Source of the DNA: a virus
Strand: one strand, 5' to 3'
Length of the DNA: 20,380 nucleotides
IMG/VR virus record: IMGVR_UViG_3300037189_000362
Coordinates: 1-20,380 of that record
Below the pieces are notes generated by a model. The model was not told where the DNA came from. It ran no database searches and saw nothing but the letters and a program-made list of their open reading frames with translations. Shown here in pieces: positions 1,212 to 13,465 of the stretch (within the stretch, counting starts at the first letter, position 1; each line of letters opens with the position of its first letter). Both the position numbers and the translations under genes were made by a program.

Positions 1212-1694
1212 TTATTTGATCCTAATGAATTGATGGAATAGCTCACCGTTTTTGCCACGGGGAGCTGTGTTTAGAAACTCAAAACCAAGCCACTTGAGCC
1301 AACGGACGTGCACAGTGTTCCTGACATCAACCCAGTTCCATAGAACGGGGTAGTCAGTGTGCAACTCATCCACACACCCAGGGACGATCCTGGCAGACCT
1401 GAGGGCCACCTTGGGAAACCCATCGGTGCCGACTAGCCAGCAACACCCAACGAGAAGCTCATTGTCAAGGGTGTGCGGACCAACACCAAAAAGTGCCACG
1501 GCTGTATCGTTGTCGTCTACAACGGCAAACACCTTGTCGCTGTAGATGCAGGAGCTGGCAAGGGCTGCCTTTGGGTCATACCCAAGGGCCTTTGCCTCCC
1601 TAGCATCATCACTCCGCATACCTTCAGAAACGGTGCGGATGTCCTTGATGGTGGCCTGTCTTACGACTTTATGCTCGCTGCGACCGTGTGACAT
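1212..1694 (-). CDS. T7 gp13-like protein with GNAT-like fold
   Basis: The 160-residue protein resembles T7 gp13 most clearly near its C-terminus: LWNWVDVRNTVHVRWLKWLG matches the T7 pattern LWNYVWVGNTSHIRFLKTIG. This segment is also the typical acetyl-CoA-site region of GNAT acetyltransferases, and phage gp13 proteins are often described as GNAT-like. In T7, gp13 is needed for correct assembly of the virion core but is not a lasting major component. I prefer the ATG at 1694, which has GAGG eight bases upstream, over a TTG at 1706 with no better signal. The gene overlaps the last 26 bases of the gp12 gene, which suggests coupled translation. Whether it acetylates anything is unknown. Confidence 0.82.
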   Translation of the reverse strand: MSHGRSEHKVVRQATIKDIRTVSEGMRSDDAREAKALGYDPKAALASSCIYSDKVFAVVDDNDTAVALFGVGPHTLDNELLVGCCWLVGTDGFPKVALRSARIVPGCVDELHTDYPVLWNWVDVRNTVHVRWLKWLGFEFLNTAPRGKNGELFHQFIRIK

Positions 1695-4638
1695 AGCTCG
1701 CCTCAATCTCAGCCGACAAGATGTGGAAGGGGAGGTGGTTATCGTTGATGATGTCGATACGCATCTCTTCGTTCTTACCGTGGACTGGGAATTTAAACGT
1801 ACCAGAATTTATGGGCACCGCAGCAATAACCGATAGGCCAGTGCCAAGGATCTTGCCAGTGAAGTCATACAGGTACACCGCAGAACCGAATCGGTTAACT
1901 GCCCTAGACCGGAAGTACGAAGAGTCGCTGTAGACCAGGTACATGTTGCGGATCTGGTATCGACCAGAAGCAAAGGCAGAAGTACCGCTGTCACTGCGCT
2001 GTTTCATGTACTGGGTGCTGAACTGATACCGGCTGCTGTAGACCTCACCAACCCACACGTCAATGCCGGTGACATCACCCTTGACAATGATGGTATTTGC
2101 AACCGCACCACCAATGCTTCCCGACGGTCTGTTGCCATTATCAGAATTGCTAAACTCTGAGGTGCCGACGCTGTTGAACGCCTGAACTGCGTATGAGTAC
2201 ACGATGCCGGGGAGAGCAGAGCTGTCCTCAAAGAAACCCGTGGTAGCCGTGCCGATTCGCACGGTAACGCCATTAAGGGTTCTCCAGACGATGTAGCCCG
2301 TGGCATCCGCAACGGCATCCCAGGTCAGCTCAACGGTCGTGGCGTGGCTTGTATCGCCATCAGAAGCCTCCAGGTTGGACGGTTTGGTTGGAGGGGTAGG
2401 GCCACCTCCACCACCCCCTCCGCCTCCCCCACCGCCTCCTCCGCCTCCACCGCCGCCACCAGTGTCACCACCATCAGGATCAGGGAACTCAGAGCCCGGG
2501 TCACCAGTGGAATTGTCCTCGCCGGTACCCTCACCACCGTTGGGACCTGAATTGCTGTTATCAATTTCGTTACCCAGCAGGCTGGGAGACCCTGGGATAT
2601 AGACCGTATAGGCATACCCGGCCTCAGACGAGGTTGTTGCCTTGGCCACCACACGGATGCGGGAGTAGTTCTCCACGCTGTAGGGGATGGTGATGGTTGT
2701 CTTGTTAGTGGCAGAATCGTAGGTTTTGACGGTGGGCTCAAAACGCCTGTCAAGATGCGTGACAAATTTACTGTTCTCATCCTTGCGGTTCGGTTCCACA
2801 ATGATCTTCTCAAGGTAGAGACCGTCAGTCCGCTGGATGGCCATGTACAGGGTGGACTTCATCCATGCGATACCCCTGATGGCACTTCCATTGAAGCTCC
2901 AGCGGGACCACGAGGACTGGACCCGCTCGCTACCGCTGTTAAGCCACTTGTAGACGTACAGGTTAAACGGCTCATCATCGGTAACACCGATAAGGATGTT
3001 GTCGTGGGTAGACCCAACGATCTGCCTGAGCTTGCCGCCAATGTACTTGGGGATGTGGGCAGAGATATCAGGGGCAGTCAGCGTGGCGTTATCGTTGGGG
3101 TTCGTGATCATCTCACGGACACCAGAGTAACCACCACGGCTGAACCCAAAGAAGACGCTTTCGGCCACAACCGATGGGCGGCAGTACGACAGGGTGTCAT
3201 AGTTGCCCACCACGTTCAGCGTGGCAGTCTTTGGGGTAAGAGCTGGGTTACCGCTGAGGACAAACTGGGTCTGATCAGAGAAGACCACCAGCCGCTCAGC
3301 AAACGGAACTGCATGGCGGAAGACCGTGATGGCTGGGTAAGACGACCCAACGTCGATAGGGTCAGAGTCCAGGAGCGTGGTGACGGTGCTTCGAAAGAAA
3401 TTGAAGTAGTTACCAGCTTCGGACAGGACAATGGCTTCCTGGCAGAGAAACCCAAGGCGACCACGGAACAGGAAGATGTCGTTAATGGTCTTGCCAATAA
3501 AGCTGGGATTGGGGTTAGACGAAGCATCACCAGCAGCACGGCCGGTCCACTTGTTAGCTGTATTGGCAAAGCTGCTGTACTGGGTACCGTCAAGACGCTT
3601 GAAGACAAACTCAGTGGACGACACGCGGATAAGAGCGTGTGGCATTGTGTTGTAGTTGTAATGCTGGACCGTGGACTGACCAACGGTCTCAGACCAAAGA
3701 CCTTCGCTGAGGGTGCTCGTGGTGTCCTTGGCAGCAAACTTCACATAGTAATCATCTTCGGTGGAGTCTGGAAGACCATCCACACGAACGATCATGTTGT
3801 TCTTGGCTACCGAAGGGAGGTCACTAAATGACTGCACAGAGTTCTTGATGAGGCCGATACCAGATTCACCAAGACCGCTGTTAACGGTCATGTCAAATGC
3901 GGCGGTCTTTGAAAAGTAAGTTGTATAGGAGCCTGCACCACGGGTAACAGTCCATCCATTTCCTGAGCTACCACCATTGGTAACGAAGGCAGCCTTTAGT
4001 TCGGCCATGATGGAAATAACGTCAGCATGGGAAACATTGTTAAACGATTCACCATCAAATGTTGAATTGTTATGCTGACTTGCTCCGCTCTTCATTTCAG
4101 CGGCAAGAGTGCCTGCAATAGCATATTTAGTGCTGTATCCACCTTGCTTGATCCACACCAAAGCCTCATTAACAGCCGCTGCTGTTGCCGTACTAGAGTC
4201 CATGCTGACAACCGTATCGGTGTTCAGGATGAACGTGTAGTCAGCCACAGACACAGCCTTGAACACGGAGTCGGCATTAATGGTCGTGAGGTAGGTAGGA
4301 ACGCCTGCAGTCAGGTGCACGTTACTGTGAATGGTCACCGTCATGGTGGTTGTGGTGCCATCATCATTGATCCGATACACCCCAATGCCACCACTGCGGA
4401 TCACCGCAATGTAACGCTCAGTACCATCCCCACGGTCAATCGCGTGCACCGTGGCCTTCCCTGCGTCACCGTTAATCAGCTTTTGAACATGCTCAGTGGG
4501 TGGACGCTTGCCAAGACCTTCCACAGGCGAGGCATACAGGTTTTCCTGAGCTTCGGCCTGGGTGGGGAACCGCAATGCGGGAGCTTGCTGAGAGACTCCG
4601 TTAAGGAGGTTAGCAATGGAAAGGGTAATAAGACTCAT
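1669..4638 (-). CDS. Tail tubular protein B, T7 gp12-like, with Gly20 linker and FN3 domain
   Basis: The protein has 989 residues, against 794 for T7 gp12. It begins MSLITLSIANLLNGVSQQAP, the usual N-terminal signature of podovirus tail tube B proteins (NGVSQQ). Other family landmarks are DIFLFRGRLGFL and the serine- and aromatic-rich middle. gp12 forms the hexameric nozzle below gp11 and carries the fibres, so it meets the cell surface at adsorption. The extra length lies near the C-terminus: an acidic Gly/Asn/Ser stretch, 20 consecutive glycines (residues 727-746), a fibronectin type III domain (about 749-837), then a return to gp12-like sequence (WVGEVYSSRYQFSTQY). The ATG follows the gp11 stop by three bases, with GAGGA some 15 bases upstream. 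Confidence 0.95.
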   Translation of the reverse strand: MSLITLSIANLLNGVSQQAPALRFPTQAEAQENLYASPVEGLGKRPPTEHVQKLINGDAGKATVHAIDRGDGTERYIAVIRSGGIGVYRINDDGTTTTMTVTIHSNVHLTAGVPTYLTTINADSVFKAVSVADYTFILNTDTVVSMDSSTATAAAVNEALVWIKQGGYSTKYAIAGTLAAEMKSGASQHNNSTFDGESFNNVSHADVISIMAELKAAFVTNGGSSGNGWTVTRGAGSYTTYFSKTAAFDMTVNSGLGESGIGLIKNSVQSFSDLPSVAKNNMIVRVDGLPDSTEDDYYVKFAAKDTTSTLSEGLWSETVGQSTVQHYNYNTMPHALIRVSSTEFVFKRLDGTQYSSFANTANKWTGRAAGDASSNPNPSFIGKTINDIFLFRGRLGFLCQEAIVLSEAGNYFNFFRSTVTTLLDSDPIDVGSSYPAITVFRHAVPFAERLVVFSDQTQFVLSGNPALTPKTATLNVVGNYDTLSYCRPSVVAESVFFGFSRGGYSGVREMITNPNDNATLTAPDISAHIPKYIGGKLRQIVGSTHDNILIGVTDDEPFNLYVYKWLNSGSERVQSSWSRWSFNGSAIRGIAWMKSTLYMAIQRTDGLYLEKIIVEPNRKDENSKFVTHLDRRFEPTVKTYDSATNKTTITIPYSVENYSRIRVVAKATTSSEAGYAYTVYIPGSPSLLGNEIDNSNSGPNGGEGTGEDNSTGDPGSEFPDPDGGDTGGGGGGGGGGGGGGGGGGGGPTPPTKPSNLEASDGDTSHATTVELTWDAVADATGYIVWRTLNGVTVRIGTATTGFFEDSSALPGIVYSYAVQAFNSVGTSEFSNSDNGNRPSGSIGGAVANTIIVKGDVTGIDVWVGEVYSSRYQFSTQYMKQRSDSGTSAFASGRYQIRNMYLVYSDSSYFRSRAVNRFGSAVYLYDFTGKILGTGLSVIAAVPINSGTFKFPVHGKNEEMRIDIINDNHLPFHILSAEIEASYVTRSQRA
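2128..2394 (-). other. Fibronectin type III domain within the gp12-like protein
   Basis: Residues about 749-837 of the tail tube B protein have an FN3 pattern: a start like PTKPSNLEAS, a first-sheet tryptophan in VELTWDAV, GYIVWRT in strand C, and a final YSYAVQAFNSVGTSEFSN with the tyrosine and the Ala-x-Asn-x-x-Gly-x-S pattern typical of strands F and G. FN3 and Ig-like domains on phage virions are thought to bind surface carbohydrates weakly. Here the domain is fused in frame and needs no frameshift. The domain limits are estimated by eye. Confidence 0.85.
2401..2460 (-). repeat. Twenty consecutive glycine codons (poly-Gly linker)
   Basis: Exactly 20 glycine codons run without interruption in the gp12-like gene, just before the FN3 domain. 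The codons are mixed (GGT, GGC, GGA and GGG), so the run is not a simple triplet microsatellite. Mixed codons suggest selection for glycine itself, as a flexible tether. The coding strand is nearly pure G with single-base breaks, so the mRNA could form two-layer G-quadruplexes. Confidence 0.95.
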
Positions 4639-4641
4639 TGG

Positions 4642-5247
4642 TTATCCAGTGAAGTCCTCGGGGTAGTTGCGATCAATGATCCGATACGTTGAGTAGTTAT
4701 CGAAGATGGTCCGATCAGCAGTCTCTCCGTCATACTCACGGAGCTTGGTGAGAGCAAACACCTCGTCACGCAGAGTGAACCCATGGTGCTTCTCAGAGCC
4801 CACCATGCGGTCACCAAAGGTGCGTGCAGCGCGGATCATGATGTACCCACGGGCTGCCTGAGGGATCTCCTCCCAGTCCAGACCGTAGATGACGGTAGCC
4901 TTGATGGTGTTCTCAAACACCGTGGTCTTGTTCTTCTTGTCGTAAAGCTTGTTGCCACGAAGAACAACCTCAAAGTTACCACGGTTGATCCCATCGACAT
5001 CGACCATGAGGGCGTTGGGCGAGACCACAATCTCACCGCTGCTGGGATCTGGGACCAGCTCAACATCCTCCTCGGTATTCCAGTGCCACCCTTCAGACTG
5101 AACCGAAAGGTTAATCTCATCCAGGATCTGAATAGCTAAGGCTGTATCGGAAGAATTGTAACCAGACAGAGAACTGATCGGGGAACACCCGATAGTGCTA
5201 AGCATGGTGTTGATAGCCTGAAGCTTGGTGGTTGGAGTAAGAGCCAT
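4642..5247 (-). CDS. Tail tubular protein A, T7 gp11-like
   Basis: This 201-residue protein is close to T7 gp11 in length (196) and carries family landmarks: LQAINTMLSTIGCSPISSL at the N-terminus, LDEINLSVQSEGWHWNTEED, and the C-terminal YIMIRAARTFGDRMVGSE. gp11 forms the dodecameric gatekeeper ring between the portal and the gp12 nozzle. The ATG at 5247 is preceded by a strong AAGGAGAG. It is followed three bases after its stop by the gp12 gene, as in T7. In this phage it is separated from the capsid gene by a large SGNH-like gene, whereas in T7 it follows gene 10 directly. Confidence 0.95.
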   Translation of the reverse strand: MALTPTTKLQAINTMLSTIGCSPISSLSGYNSSDTALAIQILDEINLSVQSEGWHWNTEEDVELVPDPSSGEIVVSPNALMVDVDGINRGNFEVVLRGNKLYDKKNKTTVFENTIKATVIYGLDWEEIPQAARGYIMIRAARTFGDRMVGSEKHHGFTLRDEVFALTKLREYDGETADRTIFDNYSTYRIIDRNYPEDFTG

Positions 5248-5262: not shown

Positions 5263-6624
5263 TTACTTATTGAGAGCAGCTACGATCAGCCCACCCACAG
5301 CCGCATAGCCGGTCAGCTTGAGATGTTCGTTACCGCTGGTATCGTAGAAGCTGTTGGTGTTCAGGTAGGTGTAGGGGGCCATTTCATTCATATCAATAAA
5401 CATCACTTGATTACCCGTACCGAACGAGACATTGCTCTTGGCAAGAACTCGGGCAGACGCGAGAACACTATCGGAAGAACCCTGGGTATGGGTAACAGCC
5501 ACAACAAAAGCAAGATCCGAAGGGGGATAACCAAGGGCATCCCACTTGGTCTGGAAATGGCCAATCATGGCGTTAGTCTTGGTAGCCCAAGCAGACAGGT
5601 TTCCAGCACCAACATCATTGACACCGGTGTAGGTGAACACCAAGACTCGGCCAGAGCCGCCCTGAAGAACCTGACGCTCACGGAGCTCACGCAGGTAAGT
5701 CGTGATGGTATCACCCGAAGCAACCACGCCATCGCTGATCTGAGTCGTGGTGCCACCGGCGTAGTAACCCATGCCGGTAACAGCAAAACCCTTGACGCTG
5801 CGGGAAATGGACTCAAACAGGAATCCAGCAGGACCGATCACACTTCCCTGACCGTAGTAAGCATCTGTCTTTGTAAATCGAACAGCCTTACCAGAGCGAG
5901 CAGCGTTTGCTGCAATAGTGTGGCTAGCAATGCTATAGCCAGATGTTCCGGTGTTGGTGTTGTAAGACGTTCCGCTAATCCACGCACTGTCTGTTTGATT
6001 AAATGCACCAGCCTTAAAACTGCCAGATCCGGTAGTAAAGGTCGCATACCCAACTCGGTAGGTCAATGCATTAGTCACTCCAAGAGACGAAGTTGCAGCA
6101 AGCTCAGCATACTGGCTGGCTTGATAAGTTGTTCCACTGGCAATATAAGCCCAATCAAGCACAGTACCAGCTGGCTTGAATCCACTGCTGCCGCCGTTCC
6201 AGGCGTTGTTGATCGCAGTGAGGGAAGTCTGGGCTGAACCAAGAGACACCGAAGCAGAGCCACCCTGGGCCGTTCCAATCAGTGCTTGATTTGCATCAAT
6301 GGCAAGAGCAGAATACTTACCAGCGGGCTGAACAACAGTTGCCGTAGCTCCGCCACAAGGGAAGATTCCAGTGGCATAAGCAGCAGCACCAGCATCCAGA
6401 AGACCCTTTTCCCAAGCATAGAACATACCGCCGTTAGTACTGTATGCACCGTTGCTGTCAGCAATCACTACCACGTCCAGCGAATCCCTACCAGCAATAA
6501 CATCCTTGATGAACTGGTTGGCTTCGGTAGAACCGTAGGCTCCGGTACCTTGCTGATTAAGGGTGCTGGTGATATACCCACGGGGGTTACGTTCGCTGTT
6601 GCTGGGATCGAAAACTGCTGGCAT
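5263..6624 (-). CDS. SGNH-hydrolase-like virion-region protein
   Basis: The 453-residue protein shows the blocks of the SGNH (GDSL) esterase/lipase superfamily. Block I is VVVIADSNGAY, with the likely nucleophile Ser57. A Gly block may lie near GMGYYAGGTTTQISD (~285-298). Block III is TGVNDVG, giving the Gly-x-Asn-Asp at 334-337. Block V is near EHLKLTGYAA, with the likely catalytic His434. The usual Asp three residues before that His is a Gly; the nearest Asp is Asp428, six residues upstream. About 200 Gly/Ser/Thr/Ala-rich residues, probably beta, lie between blocks I and II like an inserted domain. No signal peptide is seen. The gene sits between the capsid terminator and gp11, so it is probably a virion protein that could remove acyl groups from host polysaccharide. 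Start: ATG with AAGGA five bases upstream. Confidence 0.72.
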   Translation of the reverse strand: MPAVFDPSNSERNPRGYITSTLNQQGTGAYGSTEANQFIKDVIAGRDSLDVVVIADSNGAYSTNGGMFYAWEKGLLDAGAAAYATGIFPCGGATATVVQPAGKYSALAIDANQALIGTAQGGSASVSLGSAQTSLTAINNAWNGGSSGFKPAGTVLDWAYIASGTTYQASQYAELAATSSLGVTNALTYRVGYATFTTGSGSFKAGAFNQTDSAWISGTSYNTNTGTSGYSIASHTIAANAARSGKAVRFTKTDAYYGQGSVIGPAGFLFESISRSVKGFAVTGMGYYAGGTTTQISDGVVASGDTITTYLRELRERQVLQGGSGRVLVFTYTGVNDVGAGNLSAWATKTNAMIGHFQTKWDALGYPPSDLAFVVAVTHTQGSSDSVLASARVLAKSNVSFGTGNQVMFIDMNEMAPYTYLNTNSFYDTSGNEHLKLTGYAAVGGLIVAALNK

Positions 6625-6659
6625 GTTGTTCCTTGTTGTTTAGGGTTGAGTGAGGAATA

Positions 6660-6688
6660 GGCCAAGAGCCCTTTCGGTACTCTTGGCC
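6660..6688 (-). terminator. Hairpin terminator after the capsid gene (T7 T-phi position)
   Basis: The inverted repeat GGCCAAGAG / CTCTTGGCC gives a perfect 9-base-pair stem, with an 11-base loop that can close further through CC/GG. It begins 20 bases beyond the capsid stop. On the transcribed strand it is followed by TATTCCTC, a weak T-rich run. T7 has its main phage-polymerase terminator at the same place, after gene 10. Partial termination here would lower expression of tail genes relative to capsid. Confidence 0.8.
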
Positions 6689-6708: not shown

Positions 6709-7698
6709 TCAGGCCGTAGCCAGAACCACCGCCGACTCGGGACGCAGGATGTTGGAACCCATGGCGTACTTAGCCACCATCAGGTTACCCTGAAGGCGCA
6801 TGTCGTACTCGGTTTCCATCGACAGGTCCATCAGCTTCACCGTACCGACAGCACTCTTGTGGAACGCAACGCAGTTGACGTTCGTGAAGGTACCACCGTA
6901 GGTGTTGTTCTGGGTGTTGCTCACAACCTGCTTCAGAATGGCCGCAGCATTGTTGCTCTTCACCAGAGCAATGCCTGCCACCTTCAGCAGCTTACCTTCG
7001 TAGTACGCACCGTTGCTGTCGCCGCCGAAGTCGCGGTCAATCAGGGCCAGACCCTGGGTGCTGTTAACGATGGTCCAGTAGTCATCGGGGGTGACGATGG
7101 CATAGCGATCTTCGCTCGGGACGTTGTTCTTGTCCAGAGCAGCAGCCGCCTTGTACAGACCATCCACGATACCCGCACCGGTGTAAGAAGCGTTTGCAGC
7201 AACGCTATTCTTGGTGGGCATACCAGAGGTGGCCGAAGCCTGACCAGCCAAGCAAGCCAGAGCGATCAGGTTCTTATCGAACTGGTTCGCCAGTGCACGA
7301 CCGATTTCCTGAGCGTAGATCGAACGCACATCGTAGTGGTTCTTCATCTCGTCCAGCTTGTCCACGAACACGCTCGACAGGAGGAGCTTATCAATGTAGA
7401 TAATCTTCTCATTGTGCTTGATGTTGGACAGATAGGTAGAACTGGCCTCAGTAGCAATATCCTCACCGGGGGTGTGGTAAGCCACGCTAGCCACGCCGCT
7501 GGTTGGGAACGAAGCCGACTTGCCGCTGGAAATCGTGCGGATAGTGTGCTTGTCCTTCATCACGGTCGTCGTTTCAAACGCCTGAAGAACCTCACCACCG
7601 AACACCTGAAGGAACAGCGCGTTGTCCGTAGCGAACGTGCCGGTCCAAGTACCCGAACCGTTGGCCTGACCGCCAAGGTTAATCTTAGTAACTGCCAT
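6709..7698 (-). CDS. Major capsid protein, T7 gp10-like
   Basis: The protein has 329 residues, close to T7 gp10A (344). Gene order (portal, scaffold, capsid, terminator, gp11) and its sequence features support the call: a short Gly/Thr-rich start (VTKINLGGQANGSGTWTGTF), the conserved FLQVFGGEVLQAFE, the SGKSASFPTSG segment, the middle IYIDKLLLSSVFVDKLDEMK with the E-loop/spine region, and the C-terminal MRLQGNLMVAKYAMGSNILR. This is the HK97-fold shell protein. It has one of the strongest ribosome binding sites in the window (AAGGAG, seven bases before ATG). A 119-base leader precedes it, the longest gene-free stretch here. I saw no convincing slippery site for a T7 10B-like frameshift near the 3' end. 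Confidence 0.96.
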   Translation of the reverse strand: MAVTKINLGGQANGSGTWTGTFATDNALFLQVFGGEVLQAFETTTVMKDKHTIRTISSGKSASFPTSGVASVAYHTPGEDIATEASSTYLSNIKHNEKIIYIDKLLLSSVFVDKLDEMKNHYDVRSIYAQEIGRALANQFDKNLIALACLAGQASATSGMPTKNSVAANASYTGAGIVDGLYKAAAALDKNNVPSEDRYAIVTPDDYWTIVNSTQGLALIDRDFGGDSNGAYYEGKLLKVAGIALVKSNNAAAILKQVVSNTQNNTYGGTFTNVNCVAFHKSAVGTVKLMDLSMETEYDMRLQGNLMVAKYAMGSNILRPESAVVLATA

Positions 7699-7817: not shown

Positions 7818-8090
7818 TTACGGATTAAGCTTAGGGTCTTTAGAAGCAGCTCCCTCAGGAGCTACATACCCAGCGTACCAACCCTCGGGTAACGCTACGG
7901 TATTGGATGACAGTTCCCATTCGGAACCGTTCCAAAAATAGACATGGCCCCGGATATCAGGGCCAAGCCTTACTAGATCATGGTCTGCCGGGTGGACGAA
8001 CACGACCCGTGTATTGTTGCACCCGTTTAGAAAACCGGTCGTAGACATTGCCAGGACCAGCAGGGGCATCTTTCGCAAGCGTGCGTTCAT
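7818..8090 (-). CDS. Small lipoprotein, spanin-like (Rz1-type), overlapping its partner gene
   Basis: From the ATG at 8090 this encodes 90 residues. The start MNARLRKMPLLVLAMSTTGF has a positive N-terminus, a hydrophobic core and then LNGC, a lipobox with an unusual Asn at -2. After the cysteine come TRVVFVHPADHDLVRLGPD and later WELSSNTVALPEGWYAGYV. This pattern (VRLG..., then LPEGWY near the end) recurs in small phage proteins encoded beside lysis genes. A longer frame reaches up to 8150, but the signal peptide only makes sense from the Met at 8090. Its first 113 bases overlap the 61-residue gene in another frame, much like nested Rz/Rz1 pairs. Its role is probably outer-membrane disruption at lysis, by analogy only. 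Confidence 0.68.
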   Translation of the reverse strand: MNARLRKMPLLVLAMSTTGFLNGCNNTRVVFVHPADHDLVRLGPDIRGHVYFWNGSEWELSSNTVALPEGWYAGYVAPEGAASKDPKLNP

Positions 8091-8163
8091 TGGCGCGTTC
8101 CCATATCCGACAGACCAATTCCTTAACAAGGGTTTGAATGGCAACCACAATGGCTGCCCACAT
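7978..8163 (-). CDS. Small membrane-associated protein, partner of the lipoprotein (Rz-like position)
   Basis: This 61-residue protein has a hydrophobic N-terminus (MWAAIVVAIQTLVKELVCRI) able to span or lie on the inner membrane. A charged, Pro- and Arg-rich tail follows. Similar tiny proteins with an N-terminal hydrophobic helix and an AKDA...-type tail are common just before the VRLG/WY lipoproteins in phages. The ATG directly follows the stop of the 40-residue gene (TGAATG). Its 3' half is overlapped by the lipoprotein gene. It may be an inner-membrane spanin or an accessory lysis protein. It is shorter than classical Rz proteins and has no clear coiled coil. Confidence 0.6.
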   Translation of the reverse strand: MWAAIVVAIQTLVKELVCRIWERANERTLAKDAPAGPGNVYDRFSKRVQQYTGRVRPPGRP

Positions 8164-12889: not shown

Positions 12890-13107
12890 TCTTCAACCCC
12901 TCCAGCTGTGAGCAGCATACGGGCACACTCAACAAGCCCGATGCAGGAGTGGAACTGTCCAACAGAACAGAACGTCATGTCCTGTGCTGACTTGGTTTTT
13001 GGCTGGCAGCCGATGAACAGCAGGGCATCAAAGCGTGCGCCAAGGATTGCAAGCAACTCGTCTGTGGTGTATCGGTTCAACGGATGAAGCGGATCATGCT
13101 GTTCCAT
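12886..13107 (-). CDS. Small protein of unknown function, 73 residues
   Basis: I do not recognise this protein. It starts MEQHDPLHPLNRYTTDELLA and continues with ILGARFDALLFIGCQPKTKS. It has four cysteines, none in a paired zinc-binding spacing. Both ends are coupled to neighbours: its ATG lies within the last codons of the homing endonuclease gene (14-base overlap) and its TGA overlaps the exonuclease TTG. AAGG is seven bases upstream. This tight packing supports expression. A role linked to replication is only suggested by its neighbours. Confidence 0.6.
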   Translation of the reverse strand: MEQHDPLHPLNRYTTDELLAILGARFDALLFIGCQPKTKSAQDMTFCSVGQFHSCIGLVECARMLLTAGGVED

Positions 13108-13465
13108 AGTCTACCTTCTTTGCTTTCTTGAGATTCTTCAGCAGGCTTTCTCGCGCCGCTGAACCATGGGGAAACTTGTGGGCAGTGAGAATAATATCTG
13201 CTTGATAGGCTTTCTCCCTGAGCCAAGGTCTGATTTTCTTTACAAACTTCCTGGCATCAGGGCCGCACACTTCCCACCGATATGCGTTGCGCCTCGGTGC
13301 CTCGTTCTTGAACATCCTGATCTTCCCAAAACCAAACATCTTTTGGATATCCCTCAGATGGTATGGCCAGCATGAGGTGATATGCACACGGGCGGTCGTG
13401 GTCCACACAAGGCAACCCTCGCCATCGAACAGCCCAGCAATGTAGGCCAGCTCGGTTTTCTTCAT
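13094..13465 (-). CDS. Free-standing LAGLIDADG homing endonuclease
   Basis: The 123-residue protein begins MKKTELAYIAGLFDGEGCLV, a clear single LAGLIDADG motif with the metal-binding Asp/Glu at its end. The usual domain pattern follows: beta strand with HITSCWPYHLRDIQKMFGFG, then YRWEVCGPDARKFVKKIRPW and a final helix with EKAYQADIILTA. A single motif implies it acts as a dimer on a near-palindromic site. Its ATG overlaps the DNA polymerase stop (TAATG), so translation is coupled to the polymerase. Homing endonucleases commonly sit beside the conserved gene they target, here probably DNA polymerase or the exonuclease region. No intron or intein was seen in the polymerase. Confidence 0.88.
   Translation of the reverse strand: MKKTELAYIAGLFDGEGCLVWTTTARVHITSCWPYHLRDIQKMFGFGKIRMFKNEAPRRNAYRWEVCGPDARKFVKKIRPWLREKAYQADIILTAHKFPHGSAARESLLKNLKKAKKVDYGTA

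Follow-up and report, generated by a model that had tools for sequence, protein, structure and literature searches.

The window (a virus record of 20,380 bases, analysed over its whole length) carries on its minus strand genes in the order T7-type RNA polymerase, SSB, RusA-like endonuclease, primase-helicase, DNA polymerase, LAGLIDADG-like ORF, portal, scaffold, a small protein, major capsid protein (MCP), a predicted SGNH-like esterase (hereafter the esterase gene), gp11, gp12, gp13-like and gp14-like proteins. The esterase gene is an uninterrupted reading frame of 453 codons starting with ATG at 6624, and its placement between capsid and tail tube genes, as proposed in the first-pass annotation, was borne out by the profile matches of both neighbours (Table 1). 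A wrong frame or an artefact was ruled out by the intact ORF, the ribosome-binding site and a dN/dS of 0.11 (gene versus its 88% identical relative), indicative of purifying selection. Additionally, shuffling the protein 20,000 times never brought the three motif blocks into rough register. Searches for a sigma-70 promoter belonging to the esterase gene and for repeated phage-promoter motifs found neither.

Table 1. Features at and around the esterase gene (window positions; residue numbers refer to the 453-aa protein)
Feature	Position	Strand	Details and basis
Predicted SGNH-like O-acetylesterase gene	5263..6624	minus	453 aa; intact ORF, relatives at same place, predicted fold
Ribosome-binding site AAGGA	6630..6634	minus	5 bases 5' of ATG; sequence
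Codons 1-25, N-terminal stretch retained when the rest is exchanged; putative virion attachment peptide	6550..6624	minus	L003-L005 nucleotide identity
Block I, D56-S57-N58, nucleophile Ser57	6451..6459	minus	invariant in 7/7 aligned proteins
Inserted region, about residues 84-287, CBM-like beta-sandwich (strands 172-286)	5764..6375	minus	model strands
Candidate block II oxyanion glycine G290 (Y-x-G-x-[TS]-[TS])	5755..5757	minus	invariant in 6 full-length proteins; putative assignment
Block III, G334-V-N336-D337	5614..5625	minus	G, N, D invariant in all full-length relatives
Block V, Y427-D428-x5-H434-L435	5320..5346	minus	Y, D, H, L and their spacing unchanged in every full-length relative
Terminator-like hairpin after MCP gene, upstream of esterase gene	6660..6688	minus	-21 kcal/mol
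Major capsid protein (gp10-like), upstream neighbour	6709..7698	minus	phrog_267, E 4e-77
gp11-like tail tubular protein A, downstream neighbour	4642..5247	minus	phrog_446, E 1e-49; 15 bases past esterase stop codon

T7 has a terminator after gene 10. A hairpin (-20 to -32 kcal/mol) follows the MCP gene at all of the 21 loci checked, irrespective of whether the next gene is the esterase or gp11, and the spacer from the esterase stop codon to gp11 measures 2-15 bases across the loci that carry the gene. Since the esterase gene lies past the capsid terminator and just before gp11, the arrangement suggests, by analogy, a tail-like rather than a capsid-like dosage.

Two other ORFs of the window deserve mention. 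The first (7818-8150, minus), located between scaffold and MCP, encodes a 110-aa protein with a lipobox-like N-terminus, possibly an o-spanin, which is 62-71% conserved in relatives and without a match in PHROG or Pfam. The second is the LAGLIDADG-like ORF (13094-13465, minus; E 8e-4, under the Pfam cut-off), which lies directly past the DNA polymerase gene and is shared with the near-identical phage of the G001 record (96%).

The esterase gene is restricted to one clade of T7-like phages. Full-length relatives were recovered from six other IMG/VR contigs (L002 and L003 by a protein scan of IMG/VR; L005, L007, L008 and L011 by an added MCP scan and alignment scan, which also supplied a partial copy in L006), with identities to the window protein of 88% (L002/L003), 52% (L005), 48% (L011), 46% (L007/L008) and 36% (truncated L006). 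The full-length copies are all situated between MCP and gp11, and the L006 copy directly after MCP. Every phage with an MCP at least 67% identical to that of the window, and with a contig reaching this slot, has the gene (7/7 testable phages of the clade, at the same place), while none of the phages from the MCP scan with an MCP at most 54% identical has it, their MCP-gp11 gap being 83-124 bp (L072 and L073 excepted).

No match to the esterase was obtained from 50,697 annotated phage records (tblastn) or from the GTDB bacterial genomes, and profile scans built from L006 and L011 yielded no further relatives. The window protein is matched by no model in Pfam, NCBIfam (both up to E 10), PHROG or the PDB sequences, and its relatives likewise gave no Pfam or NCBIfam profile match; hits to PHROG 32401, a nanobody and a hydantoinase (E 0.01-0.07) were single or partial and were taken as noise. 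Current profile libraries thus do not recognise this family. One homologue was nevertheless present among predicted structures: A0A6J5M2C8 (BFVD, from an uncultured Caudovirales phage), an uncharacterized protein without annotation that resembles the window protein across the whole model (39% identity, TM 0.77).

The first-pass annotation had described the site as one where T7 goes straight from terminator to gp11. This description fits the relatives outside the clade, which run MCP, terminator hairpin, gp11 (83-124 bp), as well as the cultured phages CRP-113, LUZ100, Pasto, RHEph21 and ctgrD200, in which the slot is empty; it does not extend to other phages, in which the slot is filled too. 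Contigs L100 and L102/L103 (gp11 63-65% identical) harbour Mtd_N proteins of 551 and 686 aa (E 2e-10 and 1e-14), i.e. fibres of the receptor-binding type, bounded by gp11 on one side and by MCP or the end of the contig on the other. These proteins (L100:96-1751, L102:1353-3413) are fibre-like and display repeated 'NT..VG..A' motifs. A 148-aa ORF between MCP and gp11 in L072 (7108-7554) and L073 (5996-6442) was rejected as a counterpart of the esterase, being not SGNH and showing a weak peptidase C47 match instead (E 0.011).

The Rhizobium phages RHEph01 and TRX32-1 (Autographiviridae, Paadamvirus) share the order MCP, terminator, esterase, tail tubular A: behind a strong terminator, their slot contains a small gene and a 540-aa 'lysophospholipase L1-like esterase' (phrog_8480, E 6e-171) with the SGNH motifs ADSL, GRND and DFIHP. 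This esterase has no sequence similarity to the window protein (BLASTP E 0.8; no phrog_8480 match) and differs from it in length, in the positions of its blocks, in its canonical DxxH and in following a gene for a small protein (about 86-103 aa). Several phrog_8480 esterases come after such a small protein (about 85-103 aa), and the pair looks like a mobile two-gene cassette, which RHEph21, of the same genus, is without. Such esterases (L173/L176, i.e. RHEph01, L177, L179 and L181) occur among head genes in T7-like and other phages.

As phrog_8480 relatives adjoin head genes in the non-T7-like RHEph04 (between head morphogenesis and head genes) and in TM26 (between portal and head morphogenesis), there is some room for a head location of the window protein as well. 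The strongest form of this idea, an esterase that decorates the capsid surface in about as many copies as there are hexons, would agree with the adjacency to MCP and with the presence of these unrelated esterases among the head genes of Rhizobium phages, even outside the T7-like ones. We regard it as rather unlikely, given that the window gene lies past the conserved MCP terminator and is coupled to gp11, an arrangement that predicts a tail-like rather than a capsid-like dosage for the esterase.

Within the protein, Ser57 (in A-D-S-N), GVND 334-337, His434 and Asp428 (at -6 of the histidine) were all located where the first-pass annotation had put them. In the predicted structure the serine comes after strand 1 (strand 49-55, followed by block I) and G334-x-N336-D337 is placed at the end of strand 326-334. 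The invariance of the catalytic positions (Table 1) holds among relatives of 46-52% identity, and H379 is likewise invariant in the six full-length proteins. The canonical DxxH of block V is absent and the Asp is found at -6 in every full-length relative, making it a family trait. The missing DxxH lowers the case for SGNH membership but does not remove it, because several accepted SGNH enzymes are without the block V Asp, and such enzymes (e.g., CE2) are active (PMC9487903). For the same reasons, an SGNH fold that has lost catalysis and serves binding alone, an option that had been raised at first and that would account for a block V His with no Asp at -3, appears very unlikely: Ser57, Gly290 (the candidate block II glycine), Gly334/Asn336/Asp337, Asp428 and His434 are invariant in the full-length relatives.

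AlphaFold models of moderate confidence were obtained for the window protein (mean pLDDT 65, pTM 0.76, from a 7-sequence alignment; first 33 residues outside the model) and for its 46% identical relative from L007 (pLDDT 68), and the two are not fully independent as the same small sequence set was used for both. When VIA-align was run on PDB candidates supplied by Foldseek, the window model was best matched by the Ape1 structures 4k3u (Z 21.2, rmsd 3.9, 323/350 residues), 8gkd (Z 21.2) and 8gld (Z 20.4), with ordinary SGNH esterases next (Z 10-14, about 170-180 residues aligned). The L007 model likewise gave Ape1 at Z 19.1 (319/356 residues), 18.9 and 18.5, with the next match at 11.9. The Ape1 match comes from VIA-align, since Foldseek by itself puts SsfX3 (3skv, an SGNH transferase; TM 0.22, E 7.6e-6) at its top rank, a weaker ranking than that of VIA-align. 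Taken by itself, the insert matched CBM15, CBM22 and CBM4-like modules at Z about 7, a level that can be due to chance. The SGNH-like protein with an inserted beta domain, as initially envisaged, is thus what both models and the whole-length Ape1 matches agree on, and the fold that would have contradicted it (something other than SGNH) did not surface, the top VIA-align matches of either model being SGNH esterases (Z 10-21). We predict that the window protein consists of an SGNH esterase core with a beta-sandwich inserted between blocks I and II.

This is the architecture of Ape1, in which a CBM35-like domain (residues 104-221) is inserted in the SGNH core and the catalytic residues are Ser80, Asp366 and His369 (PMC6174289). 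The Neisseria (4k3u) and Campylobacter (8gkd, 8gld) enzymes share with the window model both the core and a beta-sandwich placed after block I and before block II (in the window protein, strands 172-286, which lie between S57 and G290), at an identity of only 9-12% and with a larger insert in the phage protein (about 200 residues vs 118). Equivalents of the Ser and His of the Ape1 triad are present, whereas the Asp is displaced to -6 from the -3 of the DxxH. The last residue pairs of the structural alignments to Ape1 are 453-388 for the window model and 449-389 for the L007 model; should the last 19-20 residues align gap-free, His434 and the L007 His429 would fall on His369 of Ape1. Unlike Ape1, the window gene resides in a phage structural operon and its product shows no signal peptide apparent by eye. 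In Curtobacterium, prophages are predicted to encode Ape1-like proteins (PMC9862828).

Given that no other solved structures come nearly as close as those of Ape1 proteins, the protein could act on peptidoglycan as an O-acetylesterase just as Ape1 does, either carried by the virion or set free at lysis, where de-O-acetylation of MurNAc would allow phage or host muralytic enzymes to cut the wall. O-acetylation does block lytic transglycosylases and Ape1 relieves this block (PMC7083599), and the candidate o-spanin just upstream of the MCP gene would also fit this reading. Nonetheless, hmmscan of the window protein gave no match to Pfam Ape1_N (PF22753), and neither did a six-frame search, the controls of which were likewise silent; no lytic transglycosylase domain was recognised in the gp16-like protein encoded by the L003 record, and the apparent absence of a signal peptide points the same way. 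Moreover, the gene is swapped between near-identical phages (see below), which fits variable surface glycans better because wall chemistry differs little between close hosts. We therefore consider a peptidoglycan target unlikely.

The swap is most evident between L003 and L005, whose MCP and gp11 are 94% and 96% identical, respectively, as opposed to 53% for the esterase (protein level). In 60-base windows, the nucleotide identity stays at about 95-97% up to codon 25, breaks sharply there, ranges between 37 and 72% until just before the stop codon and returns to 98-100% after it. The same pattern is seen between the window and the G002 (L005) record (0.52-0.61 within the gene, 0.86-0.98 around it). 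Hence, the gene body is replaced behind a retained N-terminus, a type of exchange commonly seen in virion proteins that face the host, host-facing tail proteins among them, even if the breakpoint at codon 25 may merely mark the end of homology for recombination. A search with the exact DNA pattern of the 5' end for other bodies behind the same N-terminus returned only the three known close phages. That the product is a non-virion enzyme (intracellular or acting at lysis time) merely placed in the late operon we hold to be highly improbable; a 'moron'-like insertion past a terminator would look alike, but the same place is kept in 7/7 testable phages of the clade and whole-body exchange behind a retained N-terminus is typical of virion appendages.

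We reason that the window protein is probably a virion-attached SGNH O-acetylesterase acting on a surface glycan of the host, made up of a short attachment peptide at the N-terminus and a body that can be exchanged; a virion deacetylase was among the options offered in the first-pass annotation. The reading frame, its conservation and position, the transcriptional context and the exchange of alleles are observed, the fold and active site are predicted, and virion location, activity and substrate we infer. The first 25 or so residues would attach it to the particle, and the remainder would form the host-facing enzyme, with a carbohydrate-binding beta-sandwich within the SGNH core as in Ape1. 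Made at low copy from the post-terminator (tail gene) transcript, the esterase would bind the host surface glycan on contact and take off its O-acetyl groups by means of Ser57, His434 and probably Asp428, letting the phage reach or hold its receptor; between phages it is exchanged as a module. New here are the protein family, the Ape1-like architecture at this place of a T7-like operon and the swap pattern.

If this proposal is true, some T7-like phages bear an exchangeable esterase for surface sugars that is encoded away from the tail-fibre locus, and host-range prediction from fibre and spike genes alone would miss it. A wider proposal, which we advance tentatively and hold to be possible though doubtful, is that the place from MCP terminator to gp11 constitutes a recurrent slot for a second, non-tail-fibre host-interaction module, and that the window protein is an Ape1-architecture esterase on head or neck, held by a 25-residue peptide and with a freely exchanged body. 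The slot would then have been loaded independently in several lineages, an idea that the cultured Rhizobium phage RHEph01 makes testable at once.

The deacetylation of surface glycans by SGNH enzymes is an established phage strategy, typified by G7C gp63.1 and its relatives (PMC13123978, PMC7693777, PMC11654681), and SGNH deacetylases are known in tail spikes, including those of T7-like phages (PMC7693777, PMC13123978). G7C gp63.1 and the tail spikes of Pectobacterium phages Q19, PP47 and PP81 are likewise predicted polysaccharide O-deacetylases in podophage virions. These SGNH tailspikes carry tail-attachment N-domains, and those of Q19, PP47 and PP81 occupy the gp17 position, whereas the window protein has no Pfam or T7-tail domain and is encoded between MCP and gp11. 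An esterase of the window type is not the main fibre, since the record of L003 (a nearly identical phage) has its own T7-type tail fibre, encoded elsewhere, and collar proteins; the esterase would be a second host-contact part beside it.

Two further regions may be related to host contact. In the near-identical phage of the G001 record, a 582-aa protein (L090:1499-3247, minus; phrog_5939, tail protein) is encoded downstream of the large terminase and is another appendage candidate. In the gp12 nozzle protein of the window (1669-4638, minus), the conserved 670 residues are followed by a poly-glycine linker and by a stretch that weakly matches fibronectin-III (E 0.018). Its variable part (about 1830-3080) has a nucleotide identity to near-identical phages of 0.69-0.81, versus about 0.95 around it, and the gp12 of L007 is shorter by 140 residues; this patch appears to be a second exchanged, possibly host-facing, region.
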